A stretch of DNA of 44,977 nt from Ruminococcus sp. (GTDB lineage: Bacteria > Bacillota > Clostridia > Oscillospirales > Ruminococcaceae): NCBI GenBank assembly GCA_020861185.1, contig JAJBSV010000011.1:1-44977 (forward strand), given 5' to 3'. The notes below the pieces were generated by a model that was not told the DNA's origin, made no database searches, and was given only the letters and a program-made list of their open reading frames with translations. Positions 4,867-40,294 of this stretch are shown here, piece after piece. Made by a program: the position numbers and the translations under genes. Position 1 is the first letter of the stretch; the number at the start of each line of letters is the position of its first letter.

Positions 4867-4966
4867 TCAGGGGAGGCTTTTTTTGTTCTCTCAAAAGTTT
4901 GTGCAGGATACAAAAAGGCTCCCCTACGCTTAGGGGAACTGTCAGCGAAGCTGACTGAGAGGTTAT
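4867..4966 (-). repeat. truncated copy of the DUF559-associated repeat (family 1)
   Basis: It matches the reverse complement of the copy at 22638-22780 from the inner CAGGGGAGGCT to the end GACTGAGAGGTT. The outer arm with the CCCCTCCACCA motif is missing. The inner spacer still reads GTTCTCTCAAAAGTTTGTGC, like the spacer of the copy at 9877-10018. Confidence 0.75.
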
Positions 4967-5525: not shown

Positions 5526-5641
5526 TGTATGGGTGGAAAAGTTTGGTTTTACCAAACTTCCGAAGTTCGCTTGCGAACTTCTACATCCAGCCCGAAAATC
5601 TCGATTGCCATGCTGGCGGGCGGATAATATCCGCCCCTACA
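5526..5641. repeat. family-2 repeat, nested-hairpin variant
   Basis: One end is the standard GGGCGGATAATATCCGCCCC hairpin plus TACA. The other end has AAGTTTGG/CCAAACTT and AAGTTCGC/GCGAACTT hairpins nested inside the arms. It fills the glyS to 4963-5505 gap. Confidence 0.85.
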
Positions 5642-8559: not shown

Positions 8560-8632
8560 TGTAGGGGCGGATATCATCCGCCCGTTGTAGTGCTGATATC
8601 TTTTTTTCGGGCGGATGATATCCGCCCCTACA
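8560..8632. repeat. family-2 repeat, canonical short form
   Basis: Ends TGTAGGGGCGGATATCATCC and its near-complement are 26 bp each and form inner GGGCGGAT/ATCCGCCC hairpins. A 21-base spacer contains TTGTAGTGC, also seen in the copies at 14826 and 16964. Confidence 0.9.
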
Positions 8633-8783: not shown

Positions 8784-9878
8784 ATGAAGAGATTAGTCGC
8801 CGCCACCGTTGCGGCAATGCTTTTGATTTCGCTTGTCGGGTGCTCGAATGAGGCGAACGATGAGGTCGTTTCTGGGGATATCACCACCGAGGCGATTGTT
8901 GCAGAAGAGCCGGTTTCTTCCGAAGAAGAGGTTACCACAGCTCCCGAAGAGACCGAAATCGCAGAAGACACCGGAAGCGTCGAAAACAGTGTCGGTGACA
9001 CGGAAGAAACTTCTGACGAAGAAACCACGAGCGATGCCATGGGCGTTGAGCTCACCGAGGTCGAGCTTACGATGTACGCCACCGACCCGCTGAACGTCCG
9101 CGAGGGTCCCGATGCCGAATATGAAGCCTTGGGACAGCTCATGGTCGGGGACGCCGTGACGGTCACGGGCGAGCTTTCGAACGGCTGGTATCGCATTGAC
9201 TACAACGGCACCGTCGCCTATGTCTACGGCGAGTACTTAAGAGAGGAAGAGGTCATCACGGAGGATGAATATACGGATGTCGAATCGGACGACGAGTACT
9301 ACTTCCAGACGGAAGAGGACTACTTGATTCTCGTCAACAAGACCCATCTCCTTCCGGACGACTATAAAATCGAGACCGATTACGTTCAGGGAAGCTACGA
9401 GATGGAGAAGACCGCCGCATACTATTGCAAGCTGATGATTGAAGCCGCCGCGGCAGACGGAATCAATCTTAAAGTCCTGTCGGCTTACCGCACCGTCGCC
9501 TATCAGCAGAAGCTCTTTGACCGCAATGTTCAATCCCGTATGGACGACGACGGCATGACCTATGAAGAGGCATATGCCGACACGGCGATAAACATAGCGC
9601 CTCCCGGAGGCTCGGAGCACAACGCAGGCTTGGCGGTCGACATCATCACGGAAAACGACTGGGACACCTACACGGGATTTGAAGACACCGAGGAGTTTGC
9701 CTGGCTTCAGGAGCACGCCGCCGAATACGGCTTCATCATGCGCTATGCCTCGGATAAAGTCGACATCACCGGCTTCATCTACGAACCGTGGCACTACCGC
9801 TTTGTAGGCGTCAAATACGCCGCGGATATTCAGGCGTCGGGGCTCTGCCTCGAGGAATACTTGGGGGTAACCGAGTAA
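8784..9878 (+). CDS. lipoprotein with SH3 and D-Ala-D-Ala carboxypeptidase (VanY-like) domains
   Basis: A 364-residue lipoprotein trimming cell-wall peptides at the cell surface. It has a lipobox signal (ISLVGC), a long Glu/Thr/Ser-rich linker, an SH3b domain (LNVREGPDAEYEALGQL to VYGEYL) and a C-terminal VanY/peptidase M15B domain. Zinc ligands are visible in SEHNAGLAVD (SxHxxGxAxD) and EPWHYR. The ATG at 8784 is preferred because GAGAGG (8768-8773) is 10 bases upstream; the ATG at 8775 is only one base from it. The stop overlaps the first bases of a family-1 repeat. Confidence 0.88.
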   Translation: MKRLVAATVAAMLLISLVGCSNEANDEVVSGDITTEAIVAEEPVSSEEEVTTAPEETEIAEDTGSVENSVGDTEETSDEETTSDAMGVELTEVELTMYATDPLNVREGPDAEYEALGQLMVGDAVTVTGELSNGWYRIDYNGTVAYVYGEYLREEEVITEDEYTDVESDDEYYFQTEEDYLILVNKTHLLPDDYKIETDYVQGSYEMEKTAAYYCKLMIEAAAADGINLKVLSAYRTVAYQQKLFDRNVQSRMDDDGMTYEEAYADTAINIAPPGGSEHNAGLAVDIITENDWDTYTGFEDTEEFAWLQEHAAEYGFIMRYASDKVDITGFIYEPWHYRFVGVKYAADIQASGLCLEEYLGVTE

Positions 9879-10018
9879 ACCCCTCAGTCGCGCTTCGCGC
9901 GCCAGCTCCCCTTTCAGGGGAGCCTATAGGTGCCCTGTACAAACTTTTGACAGAACGAAAATAAGCCTCCTCTGAAAGGGGAGGGGGACCGCCGGCAACG
10001 CCGGTGGTGGAGGGGTTT
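9877..10018. repeat. family-1 repeat, short (gene-less) copy
   Basis: A 142-bp element with ends AAACCCCTC and GAGGGGTTT. Inverted arms contain CTCCCCTTTCAGGGGAG-type hairpins, and terminal variable hairpins carry CGCGCTTCGCGCG and CCGGCAACGCCGG. The inner spacer resembles the copies at 4867 and 22638. Its right end supplies GGAGG for the next gene. Confidence 0.88.
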
Positions 10019-14825: not shown

Positions 14826-14897
14826 TGTAGGGGCGGATATCATCCGCCCGTTGTAGTGCCGATGTCTTTATTCGGGCGGATAATATCCGCCCCTACA
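14826..14897. repeat. family-2 repeat, canonical short form
   Basis: Inverted ends TGTAGGGGCGGATATCATCC and complement; spacer includes TTGTAGTGCCGATGTC, close to the copy at 8560. Confidence 0.9.
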
Positions 14898-14910: not shown

Positions 14911-17333
<2,423 letters not shown>

Positions 17334-17334
17334 G

Positions 17335-18435
17335 TCACCCGAGTCTCCCTTGCTTCATCTCCACACTCTTCCCCTTGAGCCGCTCCCCCTCACAGCTCGT
17401 GATGAACGTCTGCGACTGGGTGAATTCGCCGATGACGAACTCACGGCGGTACTTATCCAATTCCGACAGGACATCGTCAAGAAGCACGACCGGGCGGTCG
17501 CCGGTTTCGGAGTGGAGGACTCTTGCCTGACCGAGCTTCATGCAGAGCGCCGCCGAGCGATTCTGACCCTGCGAGCCGAAGTCCTTCACGGGCATGCCGT
17601 CAAGGTATACCCCCATGTCGTCCCGGTGGATTCCCGCCTGAGTGAAGCCGAATCGGATGTCTTCCTCACGAAGGCTCCGAAGTAATTCTTTATACTCTTC
17701 CGCCATTGCGGTCTTATAATCATTCCTGCCACGCAGGTTGTTGAAAACGGTTGAAAGGTACTCGAGTTGAAGCTTCTCGCGGCTTCTCGAAATGCTCTCG
17801 TAGAGCCTCGAAGCGCTTTGATTCAGCACGTCGGTATAGGTGCACCGCATCATCGAGATATAGGCGCAGGGCTTCGCAAGCTGTTCGTCCCAGATGTCGA
17901 GCTCGTCTCTCTGCGAGATGCCCAAGTAAATATTTTTAAGAACCGCATTCCGCTGTGCCAGCACTTTTTCATATCTCGAAACCACTCCCGAATAAAGCGG
18001 CTTTATCTGCGAAATGCAACGGTCAAGGTAGTCTCTTCTGCGCTCGGGCGAGCCCTTCGTCAATTCTAAATCCTCCGGCGTGAACACCACGCAGAGAAGC
18101 TTCCCAAGAAGCTCGGACATCGACCTGAGCTTCACGCCATTCAGGAGAATTCTCTTCTCCCTCGGGTTCTTCGAGAGGGTAATCGAAACGGTCTGCTCCC
18201 ACTCTTTGTCGCGAAAGCTGACTTCAATCTCGGTTTTGTCCGAATCAAATGCAATCAGGTCGCACTCTTTTGCTCCCCGAAAGCTCTTTTCGCCGGTCGC
18301 AATCCAGACGGCTTCCATAAGGTTCGTTTTGCCCTGAGCGTTCTCGCCGAAGATGATGTTGGTCCCTGCCTCCGGGCTGAAATCAATCTCCCGGAGGTTT
18401 CGGAATCCGTCGGCTTTTATGTGAGTAATAATCAT
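17335..18435 (-). CDS. recF: DNA replication and repair protein RecF
   Basis: A 366-residue SMC-like ATPase that loads RecA at single-strand gaps. Visible: ADGFRNL at the N-terminus, Walker [14 protein letters not shown], signature region [16 protein letters not shown], Walker [14 protein letters not shown]. Length is normal. Its ATG overlaps the yaaA stop by ATGA. Confidence 0.95.
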
Positions 18436-18650
18436 TCTATTTCGAGTGTGAGCCCAAGCTCCGGAAGCTCAGCCCTGTCCCCGGGACGAAGCTTCTTGCC
18501 GCGAATTAAGCATACTTCGCCGCCGACCAGAACCTTTCCCATCTGCACAAGCTCCTTAGCCTCCCCGCCCGTGGCGGTGACCCCGGCGAACTTAAGGAGC
18601 GAATCGAGCTTGATGTATTCGCCGGTGATTTTGATTTTTTGGGTTTGCAT
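18432..18650 (-). CDS. yaaA: S4-domain RNA-binding protein YaaA
   Basis: A 72-residue S4-like protein, predicted to bind RNA. Motifs: [39 protein letters not shown]. The ATG at 18650 is chosen because homologues start a few residues before the KITGEYIKL segment; an upstream in-frame extension is atypical. It normally follows dnaN closely; here 619 bases, filled by the DUF559 element, separate them. Confidence 0.9.
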
Positions 18651-18695
18651 TAAAATCACTTCTTTATTTGTAACTGCTGATAATTCTGTGGCAAT

Positions 18696-19266
18696 GCTCT
18701 CCCCTGTGGGGAGCACCCCTCCACCACCGCCTTTGGCGGCGGTCCCCCTCCCCTTTCAGGGGAGGCTATTTGCGTTCTCTTATTACTTTATCAATTTCAT
18801 CACATACGTTTTGAAACGATATTTGATGTCATCGTTTGTGAATCTTATAACTTCGAGTCCATATCTTTCGAGAATCTCGGTTCTCACTTCATCCTGAGTT
18901 TTCCCATCCTCCGTATAGTGTTGATTGCCGTCGATTTCAATAATCAGCTTCGCTTCCGAACAATAAAAGTCAGCAATGAAATAATCAATCGAACGTTGTC
19001 GATAAATTCTTACAGGATAGCTTTTCAGAAAGTCATACCAAAGGTGACTCTCTTCCGGCGTCATTTTCTTTCTGAGTTTTCGTGCCTTTTCTTTCAACCT
19101 TGAATTATATCCGGTAAAGTGTTCATTCCGAGACATGATATCACTCTTCTTTCCTCTAAAACAAAGTTGTGAAGATGTACTTAAAGCCTCACCTGAAAGG
19201 GGAGGGGGACCATGCGTAGCATGGTGGAGGGGTGCTCCCCGCAGGGGAGCGTCGCCGTAAGGCGAC
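18696..19266. mobile_element. DUF559-carrying repeat element (family 1, long form)
   Basis: About 570 bp between dnaN and yaaA. The left end (18696-18780) has an outer hairpin CTCCCCTGTGGGGAG, then CACCCCTCCACCA, a variable hairpin (CCGCCTTTGGCGG), and GGTCCCCCTCCCCTTTCAGG. The right end (19187-19250) is the same set inverted, with outer hairpin GCTCCCCGCAGGGGAGC. Only the DUF559 gene lies between. Inner edges match the spacer of the short copies. A further hairpin GTCGCC-GTAA-GGCGAC (19251-19266) touches the dnaN stop. Confidence 0.75.
18783..19136 (-). CDS. DUF559 endonuclease-like protein
   Basis: A 117-residue protein of the DUF559/COG2852 group, related to very-short-patch-repair endonucleases and the PD-(D/E)XK fold. 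Visible: ARKLRKKMTPEESHLWYDFL, YRQRSIDYFIADFYC, and LIIEIDGNQHY, where the Asp of ADFY and the Glu/Asp of IEIDG are the likely metal ligands. C-terminus: GLEVIRFTNDDI. The ATG at 19136 begins the recognised domain; a longer reading would run through the repeat end. It is the sole gene inside inverted repeat ends, so a role in moving or maintaining those repeats is proposed (inference). Cellular function is unproven. Confidence 0.9.
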   Translation of the reverse strand: MSRNEHFTGYNSRLKEKARKLRKKMTPEESHLWYDFLKSYPVRIYRQRSIDYFIADFYCSEAKLIIEIDGNQHYTEDGKTQDEVRTEILERYGLEVIRFTNDDIKYRFKTYVMKLIK

Positions 19267-19269
19267 AAC

Positions 19270-20379
19270 TTAGTCCGTCTTCAACCTCACCGGCAGCACA
19301 AGATACACATACTTATCCCCGCTAAGCGGCAGAATCTTCATTGGGAGGTTGCCGCCGTTCATAAGAAGTCTTACTTTGTCGTCTTCTATAACTTTCAATG
19401 GGTCGAGGAGATACCGGCAGTTGAAGCCGATTTCAATTCTCGGTCCCGAGGTGTCTGCCTGAATCGTTTCGAAAATCCGACCGAGCTGGGTCTGACAGCT
19501 GAGCTTAAGCTCGCCGTCCTCGAACATGCAACGAACGGGCGCCTTGTTCTTCTCGTTAATAAGAAGCGATGCTCTCTCGAGGCAGTTAATAAGCTCTCTC
19601 TTTTCGATGATGACTTCCGTGACGCTTGTCTTCGGAATCGAGCCTCTGTAATTGTGGAACTCGCCCTCAAGGAGCCTTGAGAAGACGGTGTAGCCGGAGA
19701 AGTCGAAAACGACCTGCTTTTTCGAAATCATGATTGTGCAGCTGTCCTCATCGCTGTCCGAAAGAAGTCTTGAAACCTCATTCAGGGTCTTTGCGGGGAC
19801 GACGAATTTGAAATCTTTCTCGGTTTTGATTGCTTCCGTTCTGACCGCAAGTCTGTAGCCGTCGATTGCGACGACGTTGAGAACTCCGTTCTCTATCTCA
19901 AAGAGCTCGCCCTTGAGTATCGGTCTTGTATCTACCTGCGAAACGGCGAACACCGACTGGTTTACCATAGCTTTGAGCACAGACTGGGGCAGAGTGACCC
20001 TCTGGTCGTCGAAGAACTCGGGGAGCTGGGGATAGTCGACGGCGTTCATCGAAGTGATGTTATATTCGGTCGAGCCGCCGGTAATCTTCATCGCAAGATT
20101 TTCCCCGACGTCAATGGTGATATTGCCCGCAGGCATCTTGCGAATCATCTCGGAGAAGAGCTTCGGGTTGACGACAGCCTCGCCCTCAAACTCGGTCTCG
20201 ACTTGGAGCGATGTCTCGATACCAATCTCCAGATCATAGCCGGTTAGGGAAAGCGTGTTGTCCATAAGCGAGAACTTGATTCCCTCGAGTGAGGGGATGG
20301 TGGATCTCTCCGCCACGGCTCTTGATACGTTTGTCAGAGCTTCGTAGAGCTCCTGCTTCGAGCAGATGAATTTCATCAT
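19270..20379 (-). CDS. dnaN: DNA polymerase III beta subunit (sliding clamp)
   Basis: A 369-residue clamp of three similar domains. Typical pieces: EALTNVSRAVAERSTIPSLEGI, LTGYDLEIGIET, FAVSQVDTRPILKGELFEI, IDGYRLAVRTE, FNCRYLLDPLKV, and the C-terminal YLVLPVRL. AAGGAG lies upstream of the double ATG. It follows dnaA as in most bacteria. Confidence 0.97.
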   Translation of the reverse strand: MMKFICSKQELYEALTNVSRAVAERSTIPSLEGIKFSLMDNTLSLTGYDLEIGIETSLQVETEFEGEAVVNPKLFSEMIRKMPAGNITIDVGENLAMKITGGSTEYNITSMNAVDYPQLPEFFDDQRVTLPQSVLKAMVNQSVFAVSQVDTRPILKGELFEIENGVLNVVAIDGYRLAVRTEAIKTEKDFKFVVPAKTLNEVSRLLSDSDEDSCTIMISKKQVVFDFSGYTVFSRLLEGEFHNYRGSIPKTSVTEVIIEKRELINCLERASLLINEKNKAPVRCMFEDGELKLSCQTQLGRIFETIQADTSGPRIEIGFNCRYLLDPLKVIEDDKVRLLMNGGNLPMKILPLSGDKYVYLVLPVRLKTD

Positions 20380-22630: not shown

Positions 22631-22637
22631 TTTTCGG

Positions 22638-22780
22638 AAACCCCTCAGTCTGCCCTTCGGGCATCCAGCTCCCCTTTCAGGGGAGCCTATAAGTGCATCT
22701 GCACAATTTTTCATAGAACTCAGATAGCCTCCCCTGAAAGGGGAGGGGGACCGACGCCAACGGCGTTGGTGGAGGGGTTT
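22638..22780. repeat. family-1 repeat, short copy between rpmH and rnpA
   Basis: 143 bp with ends AAACCCCTCAG and GGAGGGGTTT. Inner segments CTATAAGTGCATCTGCACAA (22687-22706) and AGAACTCAGATAGCC (22715-22729) are close to the inner edges of the DUF559 element. Its last bases abut the rnpA ATG. Confidence 0.9.
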
Positions 22781-24806: not shown

Positions 24807-24808
24807 AT

Positions 24809-24922
24809 TGTAGGGGCGGATATTATCCGCCCGAAAGCACATCGCCAACATACGGGCTGGATGAAGAAGTTCACAAGCGAACTTCGGAAGTTTGGCAAAG
24901 CCAAACTTCTCCGCCCACTACA
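24809..24922. repeat. family-2 repeat, nested-hairpin variant
   Basis: It begins TGTAGGGGCGGATATTATCC and ends CTCCGCCCACTACA. The nested AAGTTCGC and AAGTTTGG hairpins are in the right half. It starts three bases after the yidC stop. Confidence 0.88.
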
Positions 24923-25021
24923 GATGTTGCCCGATAGATAGCACATTGCGATCAATTCAGCAAGGCGCCTAACCACCACACACCACCTCCGGTGCTTGCT
25001 GTCTAATAAAGGAGCTTAAAA

Positions 25022-29225: not shown

Positions 29226-29907
29226 TATAAAGCGGCTCGAGACCGTCTTTTCCGGGATAAATATGCCCCTTTCGGGCGAGCAGATTGCGAGATTTGCAAC
29301 ATATGCGGACATGCTTGTCGAGAAAAACAAGGTGATGAACCTGACCGCCGTGACCGACTCGGAGGGTATAATCATGAAGCACTTTGCCGACTCCTGCCTG
29401 CCGCTTGTGATTGAAAATGTTCCACATGGAGCAACCCTCATCGACGTCGGCACCGGCGCGGGCTTCCCCTCGATTCCGATGAAAATCGTGCGTGATGACC
29501 TTCAAATCACGCTTCTTGACAGCCTCAACAAGCGCGTGAACTTCCTTCGGGACGTCTCCAACGCCCTGAACTTGGGCGCCAAGTGCATCCATTCGAGAGC
29601 CGAGGGCGGCGCAAGAACCGACTTGCGTGAAGCTTTCGACATCGCCACCGCCAGAGCCGTCGCAAGGCTGTCTGTTCTGAGTGAGTACTGCCTGCCGTAT
29701 GTGAAACCCGGCGGCAAGTTCTTAGCTCTTAAAGGCTCCGATTGCCGTGAAGAAATCGCGACAGCCGAGCCGATTATCGCAAAATTGGGCGGGCAGATTG
29801 CGAATATTGTCGAGTATAGCTTGCCAAATGGGGACGGGAGGACGTTGGTTGTTATTAATAAGGTAGAGAAGACGCCGGGGGAGTACCCCAGGCGGGTGGT
29901 GAAATAG
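29212..29907 (+). CDS. rsmG: 16S rRNA G527 N7-methyltransferase RsmG
   Basis: A 231-residue SAM methyltransferase. Visible: [19 protein letters not shown] and the SAM-binding segment [17 protein letters not shown]. It follows mnmG with a 14-base overlap. Codons for ENVPHGATL form a parS-like site. Its stop is directly followed by a family-1 repeat that separates it from noc. Confidence 0.95.
29418..29433. other. parS: parS-like site inside rsmG
   Basis: TGTTCCACATGGAGCA: one base from the palindrome TGTTCCACATGGAACA found at 31066. Firmicutes keep parS sites in genes close to the origin. Confidence 0.65.
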
Positions 29908-30050
29908 AAACCCCTCAGTCTGCGCTTCGCGCATCCAGCTCCCCTTTCAGGGGAGCCTTTTTGTGCATCTTTGACAGTTTACATAGAATGCAAATAGCCT
30001 CACCTGAAAGGGGAGGGGGACCGACGCCGAAGGCGTTGGTGGAGGGGTTT
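29908..30050. repeat. family-1 repeat, short copy between rsmG and noc
   Basis: 143 bp, ends AAACCCCTCAG and GGAGGGGTTT. Its inner edge, read on the minus strand, is GGCTATTTGCATTCT, one base different from GGCTATTTGCGTTCT of the DUF559 element. Confidence 0.9.
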
Positions 30051-30964: not shown

Positions 30965-31041
30965 TGTAGGGGCGGAGAAGTTTGGGCTTGCCAAACTTCC
31001 GAAGTTCGCTTGCGAACTTCTACATCCAGCCCGCTGTAGTG
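30965..31041. repeat. family-2 repeat, nested variant, one end only
   Basis: It starts TGTAGGGGCGGAGAAGTTTG, with AAGTTTGG and AAGTTCGC hairpins, then CATCCAGCCCGCTGTAGTGC. The second canonical end is missing; an unrelated hairpin follows. Confidence 0.8.
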
Positions 31042-39780: not shown

Positions 39781-40227
39781 ATGAAAACTTTGCAAACGAA
39801 AATCAGAATCTGTGCCGCCGTTATGCTGGCGGTTCTTTTGGTGGGGCTCGGGGTGTACTTCGTCATGCCGCACCGGATTACCGTTCCCGACGGCGAGGAG
39901 ATTCGCGTCGAGTATACGGTCGCGACCCTGTCGGTGGATGAGGGGACTTCAACAACCGGTTGGGAGACATCCGAATATCACTTCTCCCCGGGCGACGAGG
40001 GCTATGACGAATTTGTCGATACGCTTGAGGAAATCACTTATCATAACTGCTTCAGAACCCTGTCGGGCTCGACCGGGATTTCGAATGTCACCTATGTCGT
40101 CAACGTCCGGATCGGCGACGAATGCTATAGCTTTTATGACCGGGGATATCTCATTGCGGACAAAATCTATTACGTTTCGAAAAATAGTGTTGGAAATATA
40201 CGATGCGTAATAGAGACAAATATGTAG
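39781..40227 (+). CDS. small membrane-anchored extracellular protein, unknown function
   Basis: A 148-residue protein with one N-terminal membrane helix (about residues 12-30, AAVMLAVLLVGLGVYFVM) and an extracellular beta-rich domain with two cysteines (HNCFRT and DECYSF). Family not recognised. Its last codons ATG-TAG are formed by the start of a family-2 repeat, so the repeat sets the end of the protein. Confidence 0.7.
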   Translation: MKTLQTKIRICAAVMLAVLLVGLGVYFVMPHRITVPDGEEIRVEYTVATLSVDEGTSTTGWETSEYHFSPGDEGYDEFVDTLEEITYHNCFRTLSGSTGISNVTYVVNVRIGDECYSFYDRGYLIADKIYYVSKNSVGNIRCVIETNM

Positions 40228-40294
40228 GGGCGGATATTATCCGCCCGCTAAATCGTCGCAATCTTGGTTCGGGCGGATAATATCCGCCCCTACA
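40223..40294. repeat. family-2 repeat, canonical short form
   Basis: Inverted ends TGTAGGGGCGGATATTATCC and complement. It fills the gap between two convergent genes and touches both, ending three bases before the CotF-like stop. Confidence 0.9.

Follow-up and report, generated by a model that had tools for sequence, protein, structure and literature searches.

A DUF559 gene between inverted BoxC-like ends is probably a single-gene mobile element with REPIN-like gene-less derivatives

The window, i.e. the whole stretch of 44,977 nucleotides of Ruminococcus sp. DNA that was analysed (contig JAJBSV010000011.1), carries a DUF559 gene on the minus strand, which is inserted between dnaN and an S4-domain gene that we take to be yaaA; recF, a RemA-like gene, gyrB and dnaA are located in the vicinity (Table 1). 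As the original prediction had it, DUF559 is the sole gene between two inverted copies of one end sequence, nothing else lies between the two arms, and the inner-edge strings that had been quoted are indeed found in place. Both ends belong to one type, designated B (B-B), and small outer hairpins extend the arms on either side. The motif CCCTCCACC occurs five times, compared with 0.21 expected occurrences, a count reached in 0/100 shuffles. The inverted-flank score, in which the 450 bp upstream of a gene are compared with the reverse complement of the 450 bp downstream, amounted to 78 at this locus and was reached by 0/164 sliding control pairs (95th percentile, 26). The gene starts with the ATG at 19136, and a longer frame begins with a TTG at 19268. 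The inner edge of the end on the 3' side contains GAACGCAAATAG (minus strand), which in relatives provides the last codons and the stop. The end of the frame in the window (18783-18800) is unlike that of the relatives: its last ~9 codons are changed by a T run that has one base less, and therefore the copy in the window may be ageing. The 1.97-Mb genome contains no further DUF559 match, and no Rfam family matched the window at gathering score.

Table 1. Features of the DUF559 locus and of dispersed repeats in the window.
Feature	Position	Strand	Basis and remarks
Truncated copy	4867..4964	-	sequence search
Gene-less short A-B copy	9877..10018	+	fold -41.8 kcal/mol, z -6.6
yaaA-like S4-domain gene, neighbour of the insertion	18432..18716	-	Pfam S4_2; frame as listed, start uncertain
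Left outer hairpin	18696..18714	.	sequence; short copy of G157 at the same site has a similar outer flank
B-type end, 3' side of the DUF559 gene	18715..18778	-	92% over 64 nt to the B end of 22637-22780
DUF559 gene, predicted Vsr-like PD-(D/E)XK nuclease	18783..19136	-	PF04480; PDB profile matches 3hrl, 3r3p; alignment
5' inner edge, leader preceding the ATG; recurs in short-copy spacers	19149..19184	-	spacer alignment
B-type end, 5' side of the DUF559 gene	19185..19233	+	83% to the B end of 22637-22780
Right outer hairpin (GCTCCCCGCAGGGGAGC)	19234..19250	.	sequence; identical in G157
dnaN, neighbour of the insertion	19270..20379	-	Pfam DNA_pol3_beta
Short A-B copy	22637..22780	+	z -7.5; in G158, missing from G159, G153, G155
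Short A-B copy	29907..30050	+	z -7.0
Second repeat family	8560-8631, 14826-14896, 24807-24950, 40223-40293; also 5530-5594, 16968-17033, 30970-31033		

The protein matched PF04480 with E = 4.8e-25 and 88 bits (curated cut-off, 20.6). At E <= 0.001 the only families found were PF04480, DUF2726 and MTES_1575, with no match to PF01797, the Y1 tyrosine transposases. A profile made from 16 sequences retrieved 3hrl (5e-28), 3r3p, a 'Mobile intron protein' (6e-5), and PvuRts1I (0.002). PF04480 and the profile matches to 3hrl and 3r3p corroborate the kinship of DUF559 with Vsr/PD-(D/E)XK-like nucleases, which had been predicted from the sequence of the window. Residues D60, E71, D73, H77, D86 and R89, which are presumably catalytic, were invariant in 16/16 aligned sequences from several phyla. 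A role of DUF559 in defence was rejected, as PADLOC matches were weak and partial only. Excerpts from the literature treat DUF559 proteins in various contexts: YcjD-like proteins were predicted to be PD-(D/E)XK enzymes with a link to Vsr (PMC1189080), a text on inteins (PMC9403480) classes one DUF559 gene among the EDxHD homing nucleases, and a Caulobacter DUF559 protein is reported to be a Vsr-like nuclease that underlies SOS induction in a methylase mutant, with mobility not being its described role (PMC12907096). In Faecalibacterium prausnitzii A2-165, a DUF559 gene was reported as upstream neighbour of mam, according to a passage of PMC8836110.

When the copy at 22637-22780 was used as query, 81 matches were obtained in the genome, of which 30 loci were fetched and the weaker matches left out. 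The fetched loci comprise 28 dispersed ones, three of them in the window, as well as L017, which is an arm belonging to the DUF559 element, and L030, a reverse-strand duplicate; dispersed gene-less loci with ends of the DUF559 type number at least 28 in the 1.97-Mb genome. Sixteen of these are near-complete (~133-147 bp), and the other 12 are partial or interrupted copies or solo ends. Near-complete copies consist of an A end (AAACCCCTCAGTC-hairpin-CCAGCTCCCCTTTCAGGGGAGCC), an AT-rich spacer of 38-42 nt and an inverted B end (AAACCCCTCCACC-hairpin-GGTCCCCCTCCCCTTTCAGGGGAGGC). The original prediction had assigned the arms of the DUF559 element to the short copies. This holds for their B end (ACCCCTCCACC-hairpin-GGTCCCCCTCCCC), which equals the end of the element, but not for their A end (ACCCCTCAGTC-hairpin-CCAGCTCCCC), which has the inner hairpin in common with B and a different outer half, rendering the copies asymmetric (A-B).

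Folded as single-stranded DNA, the three full copies of the window adopt a structure in which the termini are paired and two lateral hairpins protrude (about -42 kcal/mol). Z-scores ranged from -6.6 to -7.5, and 0/200 shuffles were equally stable. Both lateral hairpins are intact in 16/16 near-complete copies, even though their stems represent nine (A) and 11 (B) different sequences; therefore it is the structure that has been kept and not the letters. Matches to the arms are often found at contig ends (G124, G039; G and L numbers denote genomes and loci), so the repeats probably break metagenome assemblies, and their copy numbers are underestimates. The window also harbours dispersed GGGGCGGATATCATCCGCCC doublets, often accompanied by AAGTTTGG hairpins, which form a second repeat family unrelated to the first; its repeat at 24807 is missing in G159.

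The short copies had been predicted to be internal deletions of the long element. Spacers from 17 copies, i.e. the 16 near-complete ones and L020, were aligned with the interior of the DUF559 element (420 nt). In 14/17 copies, the 5' part of the spacer begins at the leader-side inner edge, compared with a mean of 0.66 and a maximum of four in 100 shuffles, while its 3' part maps to the opposite inner edge in 9/17 copies (100 shuffles: mean 0.17, maximum one). Recurrence of both inner edges supports the prediction. Even after trimming the first three spacer nucleotides, which possibly belong to the arm, 9/17 spacers still started at the inner edge versus 0.96 expected from shuffles. At its 3' edge the element carries GAACGCAAATAGCC, corresponding to the last codons and the stop of the frame in relatives, and the short copies read GAACTCAGATAGCC, GAATGCAAATAGCC and similar at this edge. 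The gene-less copies of ~140 bp would accordingly be read as non-autonomous units made of two ends and a spacer that resembles the 5' leader edge followed by the 3' gene edge. The same plan recurs in G045, a genome of another lineage, where gene-less inverted arms are spaced about 15-55 bp apart and the genome's own DUF559 element (L117, C126) bears the arms of these copies. Among seven such copies (L219-L225), six carry an identical hairpin in both arms, and the hairpins vary between copies. One arm thus seems to have served as template for the other, perhaps through fold-back copying or through conversion between arms.

If the element moves, its positions should differ between relatives, and this is what the closest relatives show, most of which were compared in pieces of 86-94% identity: sites are empty, filled by a short copy or filled by DUF559. 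At the dnaN/yaaA junction, the DUF559 element of the window (genome G000) is replaced by an empty site in G159 and G155 and by a gene-less short copy in G157, whose outer flanks resemble those of the window; in the remaining 7/10 genomes compared, other stretches of 0.2-3.7 kb occupy the junction. Conversely, the recF/RemA-like junction houses a DUF559 element in G158 and G159, is tight in the window as well as in G154, G156 and G161, and contains another stretch of 0.7-0.8 kb in G153, G155 and G157. Both junctions (L138-L146) are insertion hot spots with varied extra stretches. Several further sites hold or lack short copies depending on the genome, and a BLAST comparison of the window with 10 other genomes of the genus yielded many empty sites. 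In these empty/filled pairs no constant target-site duplication was found; several filled sites differ from the empty ones in nearby sequence too, and some of the differences could be deletions.

Beyond the genus, a DUF559 element whose 52-bp ends differ by one mismatch separates paaD from paaZ in Deinococcus psychrotolerans, filling exactly the space between them, and in Deinococcus sp. QL22 paaD-paaZ is without it. In a further genus, a DUF559 block of ~695 bp present in G003 is missing from G044, with flanks of 93-95% identity. This block sits in a repeat array and G044 keeps the repeats without it, so the difference could be a deletion between repeats. For ycjD, the DUF559 gene of E. coli, 3333/5375 matching E. 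coli genomes have a single place that spans 80% or more of the fabI-ycjD-sapF stretch (L050, L153, L154); ycjD was discarded as empty/filled test, as the two other genomes inspected carry a TetR-RND operon beside fabI and are no clean empty sites. For Sinorhizobium no empty site was found: 80% or more of the stretch is present in four records and the other matches listed are repeat pieces. Homology of the Enterobacter locus to E. coli starts just past its BoxC pair, and no place spans both flanks.

Whether every DUF559 gene has such ends was another point raised by the original prediction. Within the genus this is the case: matching inverted flanks were detected at 12/12 strong stand-alone loci, with scores of 52-227 compared with at most 22 in 20 control pairs, when four weak partial-domain matches are set aside. 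Beyond the genus, bracketing is frequent but not universal. In the order, 44/147 genomes gave a DUF559 match and 63 matches were strong (E < 1e-20), 57 of which were used (56 regions and the window; the six omitted lay mostly at contig ends). Fifty-one of the 57 regions were usable, one being too short and five offering fewer than eight controls. Set against 2204 sliding control pairs in all, DUF559 outscored every control of its region in 36/51 of them and ranked among the highest 5% in 39. A score of at least 34 was obtained for 34/56 DUF559 genes, but among 191 other ORFs (90-250 aa) of these regions for one (Fisher p about 1e-25, the regions not being independent). The 22/56 loci below 34 in the inverted test have in part direct copies instead and in part nothing. 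UPF0102, a control family of similar size, gave 0/28 in comparison to 16/23 for DUF559 (cut-flank loci dropped: two and seven, respectively).

Pyrimidine-arm hairpins on both flanks were observed at 33/56 DUF559 genes of the order versus 21/1408 controls, at 7/16 versus 4/277 in a set of named genomes and at 7/18 versus 2/372 in a plasmid collection. The 18 plasmid-collection loci were chosen from 43 records before the flanks were inspected, one per organism except for two from Synechocystis B12. DUF559 scored above all controls in 10 of them, L155 and L158 were beaten by two controls and one control, respectively, and the inverted-flank signal was absent at L159, L163, L164, L166, L167 and L170. 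In the named-genome collection DUF559 was above all controls in 7/16 loci; here two cut-flank loci were dropped, the near-identical L049 was unscored, some loci overlap those of the genus, and the scores of L032, L033 and L035 are too low, the match having extended into the left arm. Bracketed DUF559 loci also occur in some Deinococcus, cyanobacterial, alphaproteobacterial, Bacteroidota and Patescibacteria genomes. Alignments of the ends extend over 91 bp in Pseudanabaena and 114 bp in Sinorhizobium.

Arms of 34 elements had 21.9 matches per Mb in their own genomes (17.5 without the window) compared with 2.8 per Mb in other genomes, densities that refer to fetched DNA and, for the own genome, to its other fetched DNA; 10/34 arms had an own-genome match. 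Three arms were additionally searched in 12 whole genomes, with the elements' own arms included in the counts. The arm of L117 gave 55 matches in its own genome, 41 in the congener G027 and two in G042, had no match in the remaining nine, and is nearly restricted to one genus, whereas the arm of L135 is widely common and not genome-specific (39 in its own genome; 45 in G006, 27 in G056 and 20 in G027), several of its matches elsewhere adjoining other DUF559 genes. The arm of L126 was found seven times in its own genome and in weaker form in G000 (11), G039 (10) and G027 (2). Therefore, some ends are lineage-specific and some widely shared. By eye, the genus of the window contains two end families (ACC[CT]CTC and GGACCCTCTC), each adjoining its own DUF559 genes. 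A second type of DUF559 in the genus (L184 in G152 and L185 in G156) has the end family GGACCCTCTCAGTC with similar units adjacent.

Occurrence of the repeats follows that of the gene. Stand-alone DUF559 is present in nine of 31 genus genomes, and short copies were found in 9/9 of these; among the genomes lacking it, 20/22 were also without short copies at E <= 1e-8, G154 and G160 having orphan repeats and no DUF559. The 11 repeat-carrying genomes look like one clade by flank identity, so the co-occurrence does not represent 11 independent events. Y1 transposases were strong in six genus genomes and in none of the 11 with repeats; one weak match in G000 (1.8e-4) is just over the cut-off. As Y1 transposases do not track the repeats, a RAYT or an IS200-type mover was rejected for this clade.

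In several phyla, a BoxC-like core, CCTCACCC-(TAA or CGG)-CCCTCTCC-loop-GGAGAGGG, is located next to DUF559 genes. This design was found in Enterobacter, Lelliottia, Sinorhizobium, Synechocystis, Azospirillum and Sphingomonas and at one Patescibacteria locus. Outside Oscillospirales, 9/23 DUF559 loci have the pattern, which was written after seeing these loci; its density within 400 bp of the 23 genes was 0.70 per kb versus 0.033 per kb farther off at the same loci. Places resembling arms number 26 in one Sinorhizobium record and eight on a Pseudanabaena plasmid. In Enterobacter cloacae (L047, 6346-6425), a BoxC motif (CCCTCACCCTAACCC) contains the DUF559 stop codon, with an inverted BoxC pair coming immediately after it. 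At ycjD of E. coli, a clear BoxC (CCCCTCACCCTAACCCTCTCCCCAGAGGGGCGAGGGG) is present on one side only, and the ends in the window, as judged by eye, are a diverged version of the motif. According to excerpts of Holder et al. (2015; PMC4666352), K-12 contains 23 TM_ECO/BoxC elements, the five close inverted pairs of E. coli always combine a type A with a type B unit, and no mobility-providing activity was found at its BoxC sites.

Conserved bracketing, dispersal, an internal-deletion anatomy and positional polymorphism come together at these elements, whose ends are best explained as inverted palindromic units of BoxC-like, potentially triplex-forming design. None of the three conditions that the original prediction named as refuting it was encountered. 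We are confident that the DUF559 unit moves and gave rise to the short copies. That the DUF559 nuclease drives this movement is probable, its enzymatic step being deduced from kinship, and the locus thus most plausibly represents a single-gene mobile element, in which a putative PD-(D/E)XK nuclease of Vsr/EDxHD type spreads REPIN-like derivatives. In such a process, the single-stranded or extruded element would fold with its termini paired and its lateral hairpins out, as computed for the short copies and presumed for the cell. The DUF559 protein may then recognise the hairpins of its own ends and nick or cut there, for which its family offers two models, nicking at a mismatch by Vsr and cutting of a target by EDxHD homing nucleases. 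Repair or replication could subsequently copy the unit to another intergenic site or convert a resident copy, and short copies with intact ends might be carried in trans, as proposed for REPINs mobilised by RAYTs.

The gene could instead be a passenger: another enzyme would spread the palindromes, and DUF559, once caught between two of them, would move by homologous recombination between repeats. By eye, flanking units at L165, L174, L175, L184 and L185 at least look like whole short copies and not like single ends that face each other, and the G003 block in its repeat array, with the repeats remaining in G044, likewise fits such recombination. However, bracketing affects this one gene family across several phyla, and the ends are often lineage-specific. 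A strict signature search of 1.5 kb each way at the 12 partial-copy loci detected no facing ends far enough apart to house another gene, and Y1 transposases, the sole transposase family checked, do not track the repeats. We consider a passenger role unlikely.

Even less probable is a host function, whereby DUF559 would be a repair or structure nuclease that handles cruciforms or triplexes of the repeats, its flanks being regulatory or terminator copies. The Vsr kinship, the role reported for Caulobacter VsrA (PMC12907096), and the terminator-like hairpins after the gene are in line with this explanation, but it does not account for positions that differ between near relatives, for patchy presence (any match in 44/147 genomes of the order), for derivatives that keep the inner edges or for 28 UPF0102 loci without such bracketing. 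A free-standing homing endonuclease that cuts element-less alleles and is copied by repair, with the palindromes as target or by-product and the short copies as dead remnants, would agree with the profile match to the mobile-intron nuclease 3r3p, the naming of a DUF559 gene in the intein section of PMC9403480 and the missing target duplication in empty/filled pairs, but is very improbable given copies at many unrelated intergenic sites instead of one homing site and hairpins that, unlike those of dead remnants, stay intact while their sequences change.

Returning to the single-gene mobile element, its implications reach beyond the clade of the window. DUF559 elements may constitute an unnamed mobile class that spans phyla, in which a lone Vsr-like PD-(D/E)XK nuclease acts on triplex- or hairpin-forming ends and from which, as autonomous parent, BoxC/PIT/TM repeats and numerous further C-rich palindromic repeats would descend; we regard this extension as evenly balanced. 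Our inference that BoxC as a whole is progeny of DUF559 elements is likewise about as probable as not. If these ideas are true, BoxC/PIT/TM and many other C-rich palindromic repeats gain an origin and a mechanism, and a large family of 'unknown function' gains a function. Since a cognate nuclease gene is bracketed by such repeats in several phyla, their origin becomes testable. A literature search, mostly of journals accessible without subscription, found no statement of a link between DUF559 and these repeats.

Among known systems, MITEs of IS elements are short, internally deleted derivatives that keep the terminal inverted repeats of their parent. The copies described here are likewise internally deleted and framed by terminal inverted repeats, but DUF559 stands alone between the ends, with no known transposase and no constant target duplication. 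EDxHD/Vsr-like homing endonucleases, represented by 3r3p and by DUF559 in inteins, are related by profile; in contrast to them, no intron, intein or fixed target was seen here, but many unrelated sites and cognate palindromic ends. BoxC/PIT/TM_ECO repeats, which are of the intrastrand-triplex kind, share the asymmetry of their inverted pairs in E. coli, A plus B, with the A-B plan of the short copies. They differ in having been described without an associated mobility gene, and the ends in the window diverge from their motif.

The closest parallel in arrangement is REP/REPIN-RAYT. By criteria taken from excerpts of PMC2817692 and PMC3116915, in both systems a lone gene is enclosed by a pair of inverted palindromes, inverted doublets that fold into one hairpin are dispersed, and the repeats track the gene. 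The parallel to RAYTs drawn in the original prediction therefore fits at the level of logic, i.e. inverted cognate palindromes, dispersed non-autonomous doublets and co-occurrence. The enzymes, however, are different, a predicted Vsr-like PD-(D/E)XK protein here and a tyrosine transposase in the case of RAYT, and the ends are BoxC-like with lateral hairpins, forming doublets of ~140 bp in which an A end and a B end are combined asymmetrically. Because the defining tyrosine transposase is absent, the element is not a member of the REP/RAYT family. If our reading is true, the REP/RAYT arrangement would have arisen a second time with an unrelated enzyme, and a Vsr-like nuclease would be a possible lone mobility protein.
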